Source: Halobellus sp. LT62 (lineage in GTDB: Archaea; Halobacteriota; Halobacteria; Halobacteriales; Haloferacaceae). From it: DNA of 64,000 nt. This document shows, piece after piece, positions 9,221 to 38,662 of this stretch. Position 1 is the first letter of the stretch. Each line of letters begins with the position of its first letter. The stretch lies in NCBI RefSeq assembly GCF_037031285.1, contig NZ_JAYEZO010000001.1:1116001-1180000 (forward strand), given 5' to 3'. The notes under the pieces were generated by a model. That model saw nothing but the letters and a program-made list of their open reading frames with translations, was not told the DNA's origin and did not search any database. The position numbers were made by a program, and so were the translations under genes.

Positions 9221-10100
9221 CTATCGAACCGAGGATAGATAATAGCAGTTTCGGAGTGACGGCGTTTGTCGGCCCTTGAATAGCTGAGGGGCTCGCTTCA
9301 AGGCGGCTACGTTCTGAGTATTCTGTGAGTAGCCCTCCAGCGGCTTGGAAACACGATTCCGCTCGACGAGCCGCTCCACTGCTACGGTACCCGCCTGCAG
9401 TTCGTCGATTGCTCGTTCGAGACGCCCGAGCACCGCGTCCGGTGACCGCGTGGCATCGAGCCGGTCGAGACAGTCCCGCTGGATGTCCTCGATGAACGGC
9501 GGGGTCGAGCGCTGCCGGGCTTCGATGCCTCTGATCTTGAAATCGTCGTCGCCGGCGACCTTCCCGAAGTACTTCGTCAGTGCGCCGGCGTCGCTCTCGC
9601 GCTGGGGCACGAACGCCACCCAGTCGTAATGAGCCTCGTGTTCGAGCCGAATCTCGACGCATTCCGTGATCTCCGTCGCGAGTGCTTTGAGGTCCTCGCA
9701 GTCATCGTCGTCGACTTTGGGATCCCGTGTCACCCAGATGGAGCCGACGATGCCGTGGACGACGCGCCAGCCGCCGGCTTCCAGCCGCTGTTTCGCCGTC
9801 AGCAGAATCTCGCGAGCGAACGCGTTAATCGCTTCGTGGCACTCGACTCGGCCGAATTTCGCGTTGCTGAACCCTTGATAGCCGAAGCAGGCGACGAGGA
9901 TTCACTTCAGCGCTCCCGACCGCCCCTCGAGTTCCGCGAGCAGGTGCCGCCAGTACGCGAACGTCGTCTGTAGTACGCACCGTCGTCGCCGGGATAGATG
10001 AGCGTCTCGAAGTCCTCGCCGACGACCCGTGGCCCCATCCGGGTTCGAGGTGGTGGTCGGCGACCGTCGCGGCCGGCTCGGTGAATTCGTTTCGTTCGTT
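9221..10100 (-). pseudogene. polB2: Decayed type B DNA polymerase (PolB2-like)
   Basis: The minus strand encodes, in pieces, the C-terminal half of a haloarchaeal family B DNA polymerase. Recognisable parts are GEDFETLIYPGDD, LQTTFAYWRHLLAELEGR, ILVACFGYQGFSNAKFGR, GGWRVVHGIVGSIWVT and EGYSQNTQNVAALKRA. At least three lesions are visible: a frameshift near 9975 between GDDGAY and the next block, an in-frame TGA near 9905 at the place where the family has Trp (ALK-stop-ILVAC), and loss of homology after about 9290, where the frame runs on into unrelated sequence. The N-terminal exonuclease half is absent. It cannot make a working polymerase. It directly precedes the AddAB-like pair, so it may be a relic of an older replication and repair block. 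Confidence 0.8.
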
Positions 10101-10123
10101 TCGCGTAACGAGCACGGGATGTC

Positions 10124-17583: not shown

Positions 17584-18278
17584 TCAATCCAACCTATTCA
17601 CCTGTTCTGTCAGATACTCTTGAAGGGCAGTGACTGTTTCTTCTGAGACAGCTGAGGCTCCGAAGCCACTCCGATAGCCGTGCTTGAGTTCGTCGCTCTC
17701 TAAGATCTCCAAGCCACGCTCAAGTTGCTCCCGTAGGGCATTGTCGTCCCCTCGTCGCAGGTGGGGCGTGACAGCGTCGAGATCGATTTCTTCTGCGACT
17801 GCCAGGACATCTCGAAGGTCTGTTTCGCGGCCGCTGTGGAGCTTTGCCGCCACGAGGACGGCCCCATCGATCACTCTGGCCGTCGTCGTCACTGTACCCC
17901 CGCTCACCTCCTGTTGGTGGCTGTGGTCGTACAGGTAGTCGAACGACCACTGTGCCTCCGTCTGGCGACACCCGAGGCCGTTTACCAAGAGATCGAAGCC
18001 GATCGACTGCTGCGGCGTGAGCCGCTTCTCGTACTCGATTACTTCGGTGTCGTAGAACCATTTCTTGGCGTGGCTGTCCGTTTCCTCGAATCCCTGCTGT
18101 TCGAGGAATTCGCTGAACTCGGCCTTGGAGTCCGGCGCGACGACGATATTGAGGTCGTGGAGAAGCGAGCATTGAACGCTGAGACAGCGTAGCCGCCTAC
18201 AAGGACGTACTTGTGCCCGTCTGGGGTGAGCTCCTCGAGCAGTTCGATGAGCGCGTCACTTCGGTTGTTGAAGCTTAT
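17584..18278 (-). pseudogene. Broken nucleotidyltransferase (AbiEii/DUF6036-like)
   Basis: The minus strand encodes a nucleotidyltransferase-fold protein of the kind paired with winged-helix regulators: SDALIELLEELTPDGHKYV, VGGYAVSAFNARFST, then in another frame NIVVAPDSKAEFSEFL, down to the stop at 17584. Two lesions are visible. The codon where the gene should start (18276-18278) reads ATA rather than ATG, inside the end of the upstream regulator gene. One base is missing near 18156, where the catalytic Asp codon of the GG...S/T-D motif is expected (ACGAC instead of ACGGAC). Only a 134-codon tail could still be read, from a TTG at 17988. The catalytic site is therefore lost. Confidence 0.7.
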
Positions 18279-18948
18279 AGCTGTGCCCTTCGGTCTCTCG
18301 ATACGTGACGCCGAGGTCGAGGTCCTCGTACATCCGGTCGAGCATTGCCAACGCCGACTGGAACTGAGCGTAGTTCTCGCGCATATACTCGATCGTCTCT
18401 GCTCTCGGGATCACCGGGTACCCTTCGACGTGCTCGATGTCGAGTGACGGGCGTGGCTCGAGGACTATCTGCAGCGGTCCCTCCAGCTCGTCTCGGGGCT
18501 GTCGCTCGAATGCGGTGGGAAGGTCGAAGGACTCGAAAAAAGCCCCCCAGGCGTCGACGTCCCGCTCACGGACGGCTAGGAACAACGGATAGTCGTCGGG
18601 CTCGCGACCGACCTGGTAGCCGCCCTGAGTCCACACGTAGACGGCGTCGATCCGCGTGAACGCGAACGGCCAGTCACCGAACTGTGGGATGACGTAGGCT
18701 TCCTCGATGGAGGGTGGACTGACGCCGGCGCTGGCAGCGACGAGCTCTCGTGCTGCGTCTCTCACGCGGTCATCGACGACTGAGAGGCCGTCATCATAGC
18801 GGACGTAGCCTGCGTCTTCGAGACGGTTGACGGCCTGTCTCACCGTCTCGTACGGCGTGTGGAGGTGTTGGGCGACACGACGGATGGAGTCACCACTCTC
18901 GATAGCGAGGATGATCTGCGCCGCCGTGTCGTCGAGCACTTCGTACAT
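18256..18948 (-). CDS. Winged-helix regulator of a nucleotidyltransferase pair
   Basis: A 230-residue protein. Residues 1-65 form a winged helix (AQIILAIESGDSIRRVAQHL, PYETVRQAVNRLEDAGYVR); the remaining part, with FAFTRIDAVYVWTQGGYQVG and PLFLAVRERDV, is the domain found in regulators placed beside AbiEii-like nucleotidyltransferases. The ATG at 18948 opens the winged helix directly; the longer frame adds 36 unconvincing residues. Its last codons overlap the start of the broken transferase, the layout of a toxin-antitoxin-like pair with the regulator first. A fragment of a close copy of this gene lies near 36975-37045. Confidence 0.75.
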   Translation of the reverse strand: MYEVLDDTAAQIILAIESGDSIRRVAQHLHTPYETVRQAVNRLEDAGYVRYDDGLSVVDDRVRDAARELVAASAGVSPPSIEEAYVIPQFGDWPFAFTRIDAVYVWTQGGYQVGREPDDYPLFLAVRERDVDAWGAFFESFDLPTAFERQPRDELEGPLQIVLEPRPSLDIEHVEGYPVIPRAETIEYMRENYAQFQSALAMLDRMYEDLDLGVTYRETEGHSYKLQQPK

Positions 18949-19060: not shown

Positions 19061-19374
19061 AACGACTATAACGAATTCAACGAGCAAAACGAACAGAACG
19101 AGAAAAATGAATGGATTGAACGCATTCTGAGGAACGAACTGGTTGAGGATGGGCTGGCCGGCTTGTACTCGATGAACAGAACGAGTGAAACGAACGTAAC
19201 GAATAGAACGAATGTATTGATGGAAACGAGTGGGTTTGCCTCAACGAGCGAAACGAACAATTGGTTTTAACATCGTAGTATTCCTCTCACCGAGTGAAAC
19301 ACCCTCACCGAACCAAACGAACAGAACAAGCAAAACGAACGAAATGAACATAACGAGAGACACGAAGAAAATGA
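19061..19374 (+). repeat. 9-bp-period AACGA array upstream of parA
   Basis: The pentamer AACGA, or a one- or two-base variant, recurs every 9 bases in three blocks. Block 1: 19061, 19070, 19079, 19088, 19097, with variants at 19106 and 19115, then 19133. Block 2: variant at 19171, then 19180, 19189, 19198, 19207, variant 19216, 19225, 19243, 19252. Block 3: variants at 19289, 19298, 19307, then 19316, 19325 (variant), 19334, 19343 (variant), 19352, 19361 (variant) and 19370, the last covering the parA ATG. The spacing between blocks is not a multiple of 9. This fits a centromere and/or operator bound by the ParA partner protein; function is inferred. Confidence 0.8.
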
Positions 19375-20186
19375 CCGACAATACCGCACGAGTTACGGTG
19401 GCGAATCAAAAAGGCGGCGCGGGGAAGACAACCGACGTTATTCACACAGGCGGCGCACTCTCCGCCCGAGGCCACAACGTCCTCCTCGTCGATATCGACT
19501 ACCACGGAGGGCTCACCTGCTCGCTTGGCTACAACGATCTGTACTACGATACCGACCGCACAACGCTGTTCGACGTCCTCGACTTCGATCAGATGGGGTC
19601 AGTGAACGACATCATCGTCGAGCACGAGGAATTCGACATCCTCCCCGCGAGCGAGAAGCTCGCGAACAACAAGAACATCCAGACGCTGCTTGAGGCGCCG
19701 AAGAGCCGAGAACGGTTGGGGATGACACTCGATGAACTCGATACAAATTACGACTACATCATCGTTGACACGCCGCCATCTCTGAACGTCCTCACCGATA
19801 ATGCCCTCGTCGCGACTGGCAACGTCGTCATCCCCGTCATTCCCGAGAAACTCAACGCCAACAGCCTCCAAATTTTCGCGAAGCAGTTGGGCTCTCTTGA
19901 ACCGGCATACGGGGACATTAACCGGCTTGCGATTGTCTGCAACCGTGTCGAGCAGAACAGTGAGCACCGCGACACCATCGAGGAGATCAAATCGGCGTAC
20001 TCGCTTCCAGTCTTTGAGATCTCGAAGCGGACCGATCTTTCCCAGTCGATCGGCGAAGGTGTGTCTGTTTTCGGCTTCGCCAAGGAGAACAAGCGCGTTG
20101 AGGATGCACGCGATCTGTTCAACGATATCGCCGACCTGTTCGATGAAACGTTTGAGAAGACAGCTCCTGAGGGGGTGACAGTATGA
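19371..20186 (+). CDS. parA: ParA-family partition ATPase
   Basis: A 271-residue ParA/Soj-type ATPase. It opens with VTVANQKGGAGKTTDVIHTG, the deviant Walker A with the signature lysine, then LLVDIDYHGGLT (A' motif) and YIIVDTPPSLNVLTDN (Walker B). The ATG at 19371 places the P-loop about 10 residues from the N-terminus; an ATG at 19344 would add nine residues that are encoded by the repeat array. By family it uses ATP to move or position plasmid or chromosome DNA together with a centromere-binding partner. The next gene overlaps it by 4 bases and is the likely partner. Because the last repeat of the array covers the start codon, the partner may also repress this operon. Confidence 0.9.
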   Translation: MTDNTARVTVANQKGGAGKTTDVIHTGGALSARGHNVLLVDIDYHGGLTCSLGYNDLYYDTDRTTLFDVLDFDQMGSVNDIIVEHEEFDILPASEKLANNKNIQTLLEAPKSRERLGMTLDELDTNYDYIIVDTPPSLNVLTDNALVATGNVVIPVIPEKLNANSLQIFAKQLGSLEPAYGDINRLAIVCNRVEQNSEHRDTIEEIKSAYSLPVFEISKRTDLSQSIGEGVSVFGFAKENKRVEDARDLFNDIADLFDETFEKTAPEGVTV

Positions 20187-20590
20187 CCGACGGCTGGGGC
20201 GACGCGTCCGGCATCGAAGGGAACTACGAAGACGAGGCCGATGAAGCCGATTCCAGCGAAACGAGTGAGTTGAGTGAAACGGTGGAAACCAGTTCATCGA
20301 CAGAAACGACCGAATCGAATTCAACGAGTGGAACGAACGAAACGAGCAAAACGAAGACAAACATCAAGGACGAGTGGAATGGACGGACGATCTACATTCC
20401 CGACGATGTACTCGACCAGATGGAAGATACCTATCTTGAGTCCCAACTAAAGCTCCGAAAGGCGGGTCAGGACGAGTTTAAGAAGAATCGCCACTTCTAC
20501 CCGCTACTGGTGCAGTTTGGCGTTGAGGCGCTCTCTGATGCGGGTGCTGAGGAAATTCAGGCTCGACTATCTGAACTTGGTGACGAATGA
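20183..20590 (+). CDS. ParA partner, putative centromere-binding protein
   Basis: A 135-residue acidic protein overlapping parA by 4 bases. Residues about 24-60 are a low-complexity Ser/Thr/Glu linker with a three-residue beat (SET, VET, TET, NET, SKT). The C-terminal half (EWNGRTIYIPDDVLDQMED, then a Lys/Arg-rich helix and FYPLLVQFGVEAL) could be a small DNA-binding dimer such as a ribbon-helix-helix type: a strand followed by two helices. I do not recognise a named family. Position and length match the small centromere-binding partners of archaeal and plasmid ParA proteins (SegB or ParG-like role). The DNA encoding the linker repeats the AACGA array found before parA. Confidence 0.7.
   Translation: MTDGWGDASGIEGNYEDEADEADSSETSELSETVETSSSTETTESNSTSGTNETSKTKTNIKDEWNGRTIYIPDDVLDQMEDTYLESQLKLRKAGQDEFKKNRHFYPLLVQFGVEALSDAGAEEIQARLSELGDE
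20260..20354 (+). repeat. Second 9-bp-period AACGA array, inside the ParA partner gene
   Basis: Within the partner gene the pentamer AACGA or a variant occurs at 20260, 20269 (variant), 20278 (variant), 20287 (variant), 20296 (variant), 20305, 20314 (variant), 20323, 20332, 20341 and 20350, with no break in the 9-base register. Nine bases are three codons, so the repeats are read as the S/T-E-T linker. The motif and period are the same as in the array before parA. Confidence 0.8.
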
Positions 20591-22147: not shown

Positions 22148-22174
22148 TATGAAGCCGTAATCTTGGATAGAACG

Positions 22175-22543
22175 ATGGCACGAATCACCGGCTCCTATCC
22201 AGACGATCTTGACCTCCTCATCGAAGGTGCTGTCGAGGCTGGGGTGTTTGGGGGCAAAAGCGATGCATTACGCGAGTTCGTCCGTGAGTACTTCGAGGAC
22301 CACGAAAACGAGCGCATTGCAGCTGCAGTTGCTCTCTACGAACGCGAGCGAATCACGCTCGGCGAGGCAGCGAGACTCGCTGCTGTCGACCGATGGACGA
22401 TGCGTGACATCCTCCGTGAACACGGGGTCGAACTTCGTCTCGGTCTCGATGACGAGGACGACGCAGCCTACGAGGTAGAGGCAGCGAAAGAACTCGAATT
22501 CGATGATGAAGACTCGGACGACGAGGAGTCACGTGCGAAATGA
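22175..22543 (+). CDS. UPF0175-family antitoxin-like protein
   Basis: A 122-residue protein. Residues 1-45 resemble a ribbon-helix-helix DNA-binding unit (ARITGSYPDDLDLLIEGA, KSDALREFVREYFED). Residues about 45-85 form the UPF0175 helix-turn-helix (AAVALYERERITLGEAARLA, DRWTMRDILREHGVELR). The tail is very acidic (DDEDSDDEESRAK). In archaea such proteins pair with PIN-like toxins and act as antitoxins and repressors. It overlaps the next gene, a PIN-like protein, by 4 bases, as expected. Its own frame is intact although the toxin is not. Confidence 0.8.
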   Translation: MARITGSYPDDLDLLIEGAVEAGVFGGKSDALREFVREYFEDHENERIAAAVALYERERITLGEAARLAAVDRWTMRDILREHGVELRLGLDDEDDAAYEVEAAKELEFDDEDSDDEESRAK

Positions 22544-23046
22544 CAGGCGACGGTGTTCCAGCAACCCCGAGCGTCCTGAACACGACTGTCCTCTCGAATT
22601 TTGCCTACATCGACCAGCTGTGGGTGGTTGCAGGGCTCTCTGGAATCTGTGCGGCTCCAGTCGTTCGCGAGGAACTCGAACGCGGCGTCGATAACCATCC
22701 GTATCTCCAGTCCGCTCTTGACTTCTTGGACGACGAAATTCCGGTCACGACGATTTCGGACACCGTCGCAAACAGAGAGGCAGTTGTCAGTAGCCATCTT
22801 GATCCCGGCGAGGCACAGGCGTTCGCCGTGGCAGACGCACGCGACGGTCGCTTGCTAACTGACGACGGGGATGCTCGCTCGTTTGCGAAAGACTAGGGTG
22901 TGACCGTTGTTGGGTCGGTCGGCGTCCTGTTGGCTGCTATTGATTCTGGAAAAATCGATGAAGCAACTGCTGACAAATGGCTGTCGACGTGGATCGATGA
23001 GATCGGTTGCTATGTCCCGTACCGAACGATTTCAGAGTATCGCTGA
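22540..23046 (+). pseudogene. PIN-like (DUF3368-type) toxin interrupted by an amber codon
   Basis: The frame from 22540 encodes VLNTTVLSNFAYIDQLWVV, a VREELERGV block, and GEAQAFAVADARDGRLLTDD, the order of acidic residues of the PIN-like DUF3368 family. It stops at TAG (22894-22896) after RSFAKD, but the same frame continues without a break as GVTVVGSVGVLLAAIDSGKI to TGA at 23044-23046. The family normally has a full-length product with a Gln or similar residue just before this GVTVVG block, so a CAG to TAG change is the simplest explanation. The remaining 118-residue product keeps most acidic residues but lacks the last strands and helices. Probably inactive. Confidence 0.75.
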
Positions 23047-37175: not shown

Positions 37176-37670
37176 TCACCCGAGCGTACCGAACCCCTCG
37201 TCCCGCATCAAGTCAGCAACCTGTTTGGGATTGTGAAATGCTGCGAGCAGGGCGAACTCTCGGGCATCTGTTTTTGAGATTTCGTTCGTTCCGAGGTGCT
37301 CGGCCAGTTCACTCCTGAATTTGCCTTCCTGCTCGGCCACCTTGTCGCGAACGTGGATTTCAAGACGTGTGTCGCGTTCGTCGCCAACATTATTCCGCCG
37401 GACGAAGTACGGGTATTTCTCCGCTTCGGAGGTGGGGGCTGTTGTCGCTGTTTGTGTCTGTCCCCCCGGTTTGGATTCCTTCGAGCTACTAGTCGTTTCT
37501 GTAGGCTGGTTTTCTGCGGAGGCTGCTCGGGCCGTTCCTGATTCTGTCGACTTTGCAGTGTTCCTCTCGTCTTGAGTCTTTGTGGATTCAGTGGCCGATT
37601 TGCTTTTCTCGTCCTTCTCATCATCTCCACCGAAATTGAGATTTCCGGAGCCGGATTTGAAGTTGCTCAT
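37176..37670 (-). CDS. ParA partner protein, putative centromere binder (second pair)
   Basis: A 164-residue protein. The first 85 residues are a low-complexity linker rich in Ser, Thr, Glu, Lys and Gln (ESTKTQDERNTAKSTESG and similar). The C-terminal domain begins YPYFVRRNNVGDERDTRLEI and continues HVRDKVAEQEGKFRSELAEH and EFALLAAFHNPKQVADLM, mostly helical. I do not know a named family. It overlaps the ParA-like gene by 4 bases, in the same order (ATPase first) and with the same build (long linker, small folded C-terminus) as the pair at 19371-20590, so it is the likely DNA-binding partner. Confidence 0.7.
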   Translation of the reverse strand: MSNFKSGSGNLNFGGDDEKDEKSKSATESTKTQDERNTAKSTESGTARAASAENQPTETTSSSKESKPGGQTQTATTAPTSEAEKYPYFVRRNNVGDERDTRLEIHVRDKVAEQEGKFRSELAEHLGTNEISKTDAREFALLAAFHNPKQVADLMRDEGFGTLG

Positions 37671-38662
37671 ATGGTTGTCGCCTCCGTTGTCTCGTCACTT
37701 CGAAGATTGATTGTCTTCGTCTCGTGGTCCTGAATATCGAGTTCCAGCACTGGATCGACATTCGCATCGAACGTATCGGTGGCAATGAACCACGCGAGTT
37801 CGTACAACTTCTGCAGCGTCTCGATTTCTCGGTTTCGTATCCGTCGCTGACCGGGTTCGCTCACCATCGTACCGTCCTTCTCGAAGGTTTTCCACCGTTC
37901 TTCGACGACCTTGAACGCGGACCCTCTGGCTTCCCACATTGCGTCCATTAGGCTTTCCCGGTTTCCAATAGTGACAGGCGTGGCGAATGCGTCCGTGTTC
38001 TCAAACTGTTGCTGATACTGCTGGTGAGCATTCGTTTGGCCAACTCCTGATGGAACGACGCAGGACAGGCCGATTTCGATATCTAATTGGTTTTCCATAT
38101 TCCCGACAAGTTCTTCGAGCCCCTCCAAGCTCAGATTTCCTTTCCCAGCCGGTTTGACAGGCGCGACAAGCGTTCGGAGGGCGAAAATCGCATTATACAG
38201 CAAGTCCTCCGCCCGGGCGTTTGGATCGATGAGGACGGCATCGTATTTATCCTGCAGTTTCTGCTTATTCCAGAGGAGTTCGTACAGAAGTTCGAACCGA
38301 GGATACTCTTCGCGGCTTATATTTTGCATCCCCGTCTCATAGGCGATCTTCTGCTCGAGGTTCGACGTAAAGTCACCGAGCATATCGTGACTTGGAGTAA
38401 TGTCGACGCCTTCTGCTGTTGTCTCAATCAACTCGTGAAAGTCTCCATCAGGCATATCGAGAATGTGTTTGACTAGATTGTCGGCGTCTGGATCGCTACG
38501 GTGTTCACCGACGTCAAAGAGGCTCGTTAGATTCCCCTCCTGTGGATCAAGATCCAGTACGAGTGTATTGAGTCCCATCCGCTCAAGCGCAACTGCGAGG
38601 TTGGCCGTCATCGTCGTCTTGTACGTTCCCCCTGATTCCGAGTAGACTACGGCCGTGATCAT
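37667..38662 (-). CDS. ParA-like ATPase with unusual P-loop (second pair)
   Basis: A 331-residue ParA/MinD-fold protein. The P-loop region is VVYSESGGTYKTTMTANLAV: the signature lysine of ParA proteins (KGG) is replaced and the residue before the P-loop lysine is Tyr instead of Gly. The A' motif LVLDLDPQEGNLTSLFDVGE and Walker B region YDAVLIDPNARAEDLLYN are kept. The C-terminal 100 residues (EVVEERWKTF-like region to DETTEATTI) extend beyond typical ParA length. The variant P-loop recurs, to my knowledge, in haloarchaeal plasmid ParA-like proteins. The 13-bp CTGTA array lies 60-270 bases upstream. ATPase activity is plausible but needs proof. Confidence 0.8.
   Translation of the reverse strand: MITAVVYSESGGTYKTTMTANLAVALERMGLNTLVLDLDPQEGNLTSLFDVGEHRSDPDADNLVKHILDMPDGDFHELIETTAEGVDITPSHDMLGDFTSNLEQKIAYETGMQNISREEYPRFELLYELLWNKQKLQDKYDAVLIDPNARAEDLLYNAIFALRTLVAPVKPAGKGNLSLEGLEELVGNMENQLDIEIGLSCVVPSGVGQTNAHQQYQQQFENTDAFATPVTIGNRESLMDAMWEARGSAFKVVEERWKTFEKDGTMVSEPGQRRIRNREIETLQKLYELAWFIATDTFDANVDPVLELDIQDHETKTINLRSDETTEATTI

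Follow-up and report, generated by a model that had tools for sequence, protein, structure and literature searches.

The window, i.e., the whole 64,000-nucleotide stretch of Halobellus sp. LT62 DNA that was analyzed, harbors a ParA-family gene and a small, overlapping partner gene, together with four blocks of a 9-bp repeat (Table 1). The ParA protein matched the Pfam family AAA_31 (E-value 4.6e-34) and has ParA/Soj relatives in the PDB. A longer ParA was considered, as the parA frame stays open through block 3 of the repeat in the window, and was set aside; the start at the listed ATG was preferred because the ParA alignment begins there in the relatives. The window lies on a 1.95-Mb contig, which may represent either a chromosome or a megaplasmid, since the 16S gene found in the assembly is located on another contig.

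Table 1. Positions of the genes, repeat blocks and other features in the window.
Feature	Position	Strand	Description
parA	19371..20186	+	ParA-family ATPase, 271 aa; deviant Walker A motif KGGAGKTT
Partner gene	20183..20590	+	135 aa; overlaps the parA stop by 4 bases
Array block 1	19061..19141	+	Upstream noncoding; 9-bp units AACGANNNN; exact AACGA at 19061, 19070, 19079, 19088, 19097 (five consecutive) and 19133
Array block 2	19180..19260	+	Upstream noncoding; ends immediately 5' of the TATA-like element; conserved in relatives; exact AACGA at 19180, 19189, 19198, 19207, 19225, 19243, 19252
TTTTAA	19265..19270	+	Candidate archaeal TATA element of the parA promoter; conserved as ...CAGTTGGTTTTAACATCGTAGTA in relatives, by eye
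Array block 3	19289..19378	+	parA leader; units from 19289 to 19370; exact AACGA at 19316, 19334, 19352; one mismatch at 19307, 19325, 19343, 19361, 19370; last unit spans the ATG
Array block 4	20260..20358	+	Coding, within the partner linker; 11 slots, each 9 bp or three codons long and of the form xxA ACG Axx; exact AACGA at 20260, 20305, 20323, 20332, 20341, 20350
HTH-domain gene	18256-18948	-	Divergent; beside the module in 28/61 close relatives
UPF0175 gene and small ORF	22163-22896	+	Downstream of the module; laid out like a toxin-antitoxin pair, with the UPF0175 gene overlapped by the small ORF that follows it
Second ParA/MinD-like ATPase	37667-38662	-	AAA_31, E-value 9.7e-18
Two-unit AACGA copy	10087-10104	-	Minus strand reading; in an apparently decayed gene

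In the AF2 model of the partner, residues 1-60 are disordered and residues 61-135 form a helical domain of no annotated family. This C-terminal domain is predicted as an extended stretch followed by helices, in a monomer model that cannot show a dimeric RHH ribbon. Searches of Pfam and NCBIfam returned weak chance hits only, with no curated family and no Pfam RHH hit; neither Foldseek and VIA comparisons of the full-length and domain models nor a profile search of the PDB gave a convincing match, results which do not exclude an RHH fold. The partner matched PHROG 29165 and PHROG 26668, both without known function, and no replication domain was detected in it with Pfam, NCBIfam or PHROGs.

Three features of a type I partition system were found at the locus, namely, a ParA ATPase with a deviant Walker A motif, a partner in the same operon and a repeated cis site beside the operon. 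The N-terminal CTPase domain of ParB/Spo0J, the mark of type Ia and chromosomal ParB, was absent from the 135-aa partner in Pfam and NCBIfam. A disordered tail is present as in the type Ib partners (ParG/omega), which carry an N-terminal Arg finger, whereas the window partner has no Arg within its first 60 residues; some divergent partners do carry RLRRRR tails. The parA-partner pair is retained in dozens of relatives, many of them on plasmids. The divergently oriented HTH-domain gene is an unlikely binder of the array because it is missing in 33/61 close relatives with enough upstream sequence, and it is also absent from all 48 distant loci tested. In the Haloarcula marismortui plasmid pNG600, which carries a close relative of the partner (L159), a nucleotidyltransferase gene adjoins the counterpart of this HTH gene.

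Nine-base arrays ahead of parA and in the partner codons

Reading of the window sequence revealed AACGA at 9-bp spacing in three blocks ahead of parA (19061-19378), as the earlier note had claimed, including the extension of the last block over the ATG; the coordinates in Table 1 and comparison with shuffled sequence bear this out. In the 330 nt before parA, 17 AACGA were counted against a mean of 3.98 in 5000 dinucleotide shuffles, and 8 pairs at a lag of 9 against a mean of 0.05 and a maximum of 2 in these shuffles. Lag identity ahead of parA peaked at 9, 18, and 27. Across the entire genome (3.23 Mb), three successive units (AACGAN4AACGAN4AACGA) were found 7 times, all at the parA locus and all on the same strand, and the reversed control had no occurrence. 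Block 1 is kept in most relatives having enough upstream DNA. The TTTTAA hexamer between blocks 2 and 3 is, from its sequence, the probable archaeal TATA element of the parA promoter. Nothing useful was obtained from a promoter scan, which covers sigma-70 sites only, or from an Rfam scan, in which the array matched no family.

The fourth block lies within the partner codons for the linker. It had been described earlier as a single unbroken block of 11 repeats in which 9 bases equal three codons. The 11 slots are indeed in register and read as xxA ACG Axx, in keeping with the three-codon reading; six of them carry an exact AACGA and the remaining five are degenerate (GTTGA, AACGG, AACCA, ATCGA, and ATCGA). 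The window linker contains 7 AACGA against 1.0 expected with background codon usage, a count reached in 0/5000 simulations, and the count remained exceptional when the linker's own synonymous codons were permuted (P = 4e-4).

The codon choice was further evaluated in 66 distinct linkers of close relatives, whose partners are about 70-95% identical, lie beside ParA and occur in many haloarchaeal genera, often plasmid-borne; as these loci are related, the counts are not independent events. The linkers contain on average 6.58 AACGA, compared with 1.16 for background codons, 2.76 for linker codons and 2.94 for synonymous permutation. Lag-9 pairs numbered 2.98 per linker, compared with 0.09, 0.31, and 0.30 under the same three nulls (sd of about 0.1 for synonymous permutation). 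The core of the array runs from the wobble base of codon 1 through codon 2 to the first base of codon 3. Codon 1, which precedes the array Thr, ended in A in 317/323 cases across 11 kinds of residue. The array Thr itself was ACG in 319/323 cases in phase vs 40/159 out of phase, and Ser following the array Thr was encoded by AGY in 108/108 cases vs 13/214 for Ser of the C-terminal domain. At codon 3, by contrast, the wobble base belongs to the spacer and was free (AGT 51, AGC 57).

The presence of 11 different residues before Thr indicates that amino-acid substitutions have repeatedly kept the DNA word. The noncoding units (750) and the coding units (275) share the 9-bp consensus AACGARYRA (AACGA-[A/G]-[C/T]-[A/G]-A), and a three-unit array was found in 58/61 upstream regions and 59/61 linkers of the close relatives and within parA in none of them. 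Two of the checks proposed along with the original observation, the count of AACGA at 9-base phase against shuffled codons and the conservation of the period at wobble positions in relatives, thus came out in its favor: all three synonymous-codon nulls were exceeded, and the wobble base was fixed in the array core and free in the spacer. Loss of the nucleotide period with retention of the amino-acid repeat, which had been named as the outcome that would defeat the idea, was not seen in the relatives, where the situation is closer to the reverse. As judged from these sequences, the wobble bases of the coding array are under selection as DNA.

Words of the distant relatives

In more distant relatives (partner identity 26-41% and ParA identity about 28-42%), other 9-bp words were found, which tend to match between the upstream region and the partner gene of the same system. 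These words are read in other frames and, in one clade, on opposite strands. A 9-periodic GAAACG word was present both directly upstream of parA and in the partner gene in five systems (L053, L057, L060, L065, and L071); its array seems to run into the first ParA codons, the start codon being uncertain. In L062, the word GAACG reads as AAC-G in the linker (N-D/E/G) and as GAA-CGC in the C-terminal tail. In the RLRRRR-tailed clade, whose cyclic word is TTTGGACGG, 8-mers of this word were counted 35 vs 0 times on one strand in the linker and 13 vs 1 times on the other strand in the C-tail, together with 15 in 5250 nt upstream and 1 in 16,224 nt of parA; these counts are descriptive, as the word was chosen after viewing those loci. 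The reading frame differs with the lineage: A-ACG-A in one, AAC-G in another, and AAA-CCG-TCC (linker) and GGT-TTG-GAC (C-terminal helix) in a third.

A less biased test was based on the sharing of 7-mers in 23 ParA-divergent representatives. In 19/23 systems, the 7-mer sharing of the upstream region was greater with the cognate partner gene than with the cognate parA (p = 1.8e-4), and the sharing with its own partner gene was above the expectation from the partner genes of other systems in 18/23 (p = 6e-5). The parA control showed no excess over other systems in the same representatives (p = 0.12). About five divergent systems (L059, L075, L133, L148, and L151) showed no word sharing, and phiH has a 9-bp periodicity inside the gene but no clear upstream array. 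Taken together, the comparison shows that the upstream word and the word inside the gene tend to agree in each lineage.

These observations bear on two alternative explanations of the repeat. The first is that the 9-bp period has no DNA function and arose from replication slippage or from selection on the peptide for an S/N-E/K-T linker. The low complexity of the linker and the equality of 9 bp with three codons favor such an origin, but it is highly improbable in view of the wobble base that stays A before the array Thr despite the variety of residues there, the identical word and spacer preferences in noncoding DNA, and the divergent systems, whose own words are read in different frames and from the opposite strand. 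A repeat driven by the peptide only was rejected on the basis of these wobble and frame tests. The second is that the array works within the mRNA, e.g., by controlling translation or localizing the transcript. The transcription of block 4 and the position of block 3 over the region of the parA start are in line with a role in RNA; blocks 1 and 2, however, are located 5' of the probable promoter element, Rfam gave no match, and one divergent clade has its word on opposite strands in the linker and the C-tail. An RNA-level element therefore seems scarcely probable.

The word was also observed away from the parA locus. On several plasmids (L160-L165, e.g., L161:1677-1699), a shorter AACGA array of three units (AACGAACGGAACGAACGAAACGA) is present in the C-terminal codons of a VirB4-like gene, in some of them roughly 17-22 kb from parA, and a genome that lacks a close partner gene (G011) also carries this array. 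The two-unit copy in the window (Table 1) has a matching copy of three units in a second genome, where the surrounding stretch is similar (L166, near 1782). The VirB4-tail copies and this copy may be secondary sites, or sites of a different binder. Elsewhere in the family, another genome contains a perfect tandem repeat of the 9-mer AACGAGAAG with 11 pattern matches (G005:C2:1307356-1307468); its spacers are identical, which suggests a plain repeat, unlike the array of the parA locus with its degenerate spacers.

Comparison with known systems and the proposed partition module

Several characterized systems resemble the locus in part. In the type Ib delta/omega/parS system of pSM19035, a small RHH partner acts with ParA and binds contiguous short non-palindromic repeats that overlap the partition promoters, and full activation of ParA requires four or more such repeats in a contiguous row (PMC9499535). 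The present locus likewise combines ParA and a small partner with contiguous short repeats over the probable promoter region; it differs in its 9-bp units (7-bp in pSM19035), its archaeal host, the location of the array partly within partner codons, and a partner of no annotated family without Arg in the tail (PMC9499535). Direct repeats upstream of the operon, serving as centromere and operator, and an unstructured N-terminal partner tail are also known from TP228 parFGH and other type Ib loci, but the repeats of TP228 are upstream of the genes and its partner has a proven RHH fold, to which the models of the window partner gave no convincing match (PMC5016525). The archaeal SegAB system similarly consists of a ParA-like ATPase and a site-specific DNA-binding partner, which is putative here, and some SegB sites are inside genes; those sites are palindromic and scattered on the chromosome with no direct-repeat array, and SegB is an RHH protein of Sulfolobales (PMC12284271).

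The arrays could alternatively serve as an operator only, bound by the partner or another repressor to autoregulate parA and the partner, with the centromere elsewhere on the replicon. Blocks 2 and 3 lie on either side of the probable TATA element and extend over the start of parA, and in many divergent systems the array sits between a conserved TCTGACG..TTTATA-like element and parA, positions which suit such a role. However, about 20 units over 300 bp and about 10 more 900 bp downstream in the gene are more than an operator needs, no other three-unit AACGA array exists in the genome, and in the RHH system of pSM19035 the centromere and the operator are the same arrays (PMC9499535). An operator-only function is, hence, unlikely.

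The location of a site within the gene of its binder also has precedents. In ParT of the Streptomyces plasmid SCP2, parS lies within the parT coding sequence, as does the putative site of the window partner within its own gene; in SCP2 it is a single 18-bp inverted repeat and the protein diffuses along DNA, in contrast to the direct-repeat array found here, which is also present upstream of parA (PMC12260392). In lambda, the origin is in gene O, and the iterons bound by the initiator are inside the initiator's own gene (PMC6022878). The resemblance to repeated putative sites in the partner gene extends to the flexible linker separating the O domains; lambda O, however, functions in replication initiation and not in partition as proposed here, and binds four iterons, each an 18-bp inverted repeat (PMC6022878). 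By analogy with oriLambda inside gene O, the array might be bound by a plasmid initiator, with the partner gene merely hosting part of an origin, and short direct-repeat arrays are also typical of iteron origins. Such replication iterons are very unlikely, as no initiator gene was recognized beside the array among the neighboring genes examined and the array words vary with the ParA-partner pair.

The statement in the earlier note that no centromere of this build had been described holds in part. A parS in the coding sequence of the partner itself is known from ParT (PMC12260392), as are the iterons in lambda O (PMC6022878). The open-access literature searched contained no description of a direct-repeat array that is common to the promoter and the linker codons and whose words are specific to the lineage. 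The principle of a site in its binder's own gene is, therefore, known, and the direct-repeat array split between promoter and linker, together with an unannotated partner family, appears to be new within that literature.

It is probable that the locus is a ParA-type partition module in which the small partner binds a split 9-bp array, part of it protein-coding, as centromere and operator. Gene pairing and position, the co-variation of partner and array, and the analogy with known ParA systems point to the partner as the putative binder, and the gene pairing, the co-variation and the known ParA systems likewise argue for the array as the candidate centromere; repression of the operon is suggested by analogy. 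Points against such a module are the partner fold, for which no solved counterpart was found, its lack of family annotation beyond the two PHROGs, its tail devoid of Arg, the divergent systems in which no words are shared, the missing clear upstream array of phiH, and the presence of the word in the VirB4-like gene of G011. The DNA site would consist of AACGARYRA units in two parts, one of about 320 bp before parA, framing the promoter and the parA start codon, and the other of about 100 bp in the partner codons for the flexible linker between the N-terminal tail and the C-terminal domain, forming a second cluster about 0.9 kb downstream. The partner would most likely bind the units cooperatively through its C-terminal domain. 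Upstream, this binding would act as repression of the operon, while the array occupied by the partner would constitute the partition complex that stimulates ParA. The linker codons would be free for selection as DNA because the linker tolerates many residues.

A broader proposition, towards which we incline on balance, is that the linker sequence of haloarchaeal ParA partners may largely be a by-product of selection on DNA, each lineage having its own 9-bp word upstream and in the partner gene, in any frame or strand, and hence a split centromere encoded partly by the gene of its binder.

The partition of haloarchaeal plasmids is little described in the searchable literature, in which no centromere of this type was found, and the present analysis provides a candidate centromere and a candidate partner for a large set of these plasmids. 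The claim is directly testable with the protein unchanged because synonymous recoding separates the DNA role from the protein role. One stretch of DNA appears to act both as protein code and as the predicted landing strip for a DNA-binding protein, and in dozens of relatives the codons used keep the DNA word intact even where the amino acids change. The locus would thus represent a natural case in which a putative DNA-protein interaction site shapes a protein linker, the bases being selected as DNA and the amino acids following.
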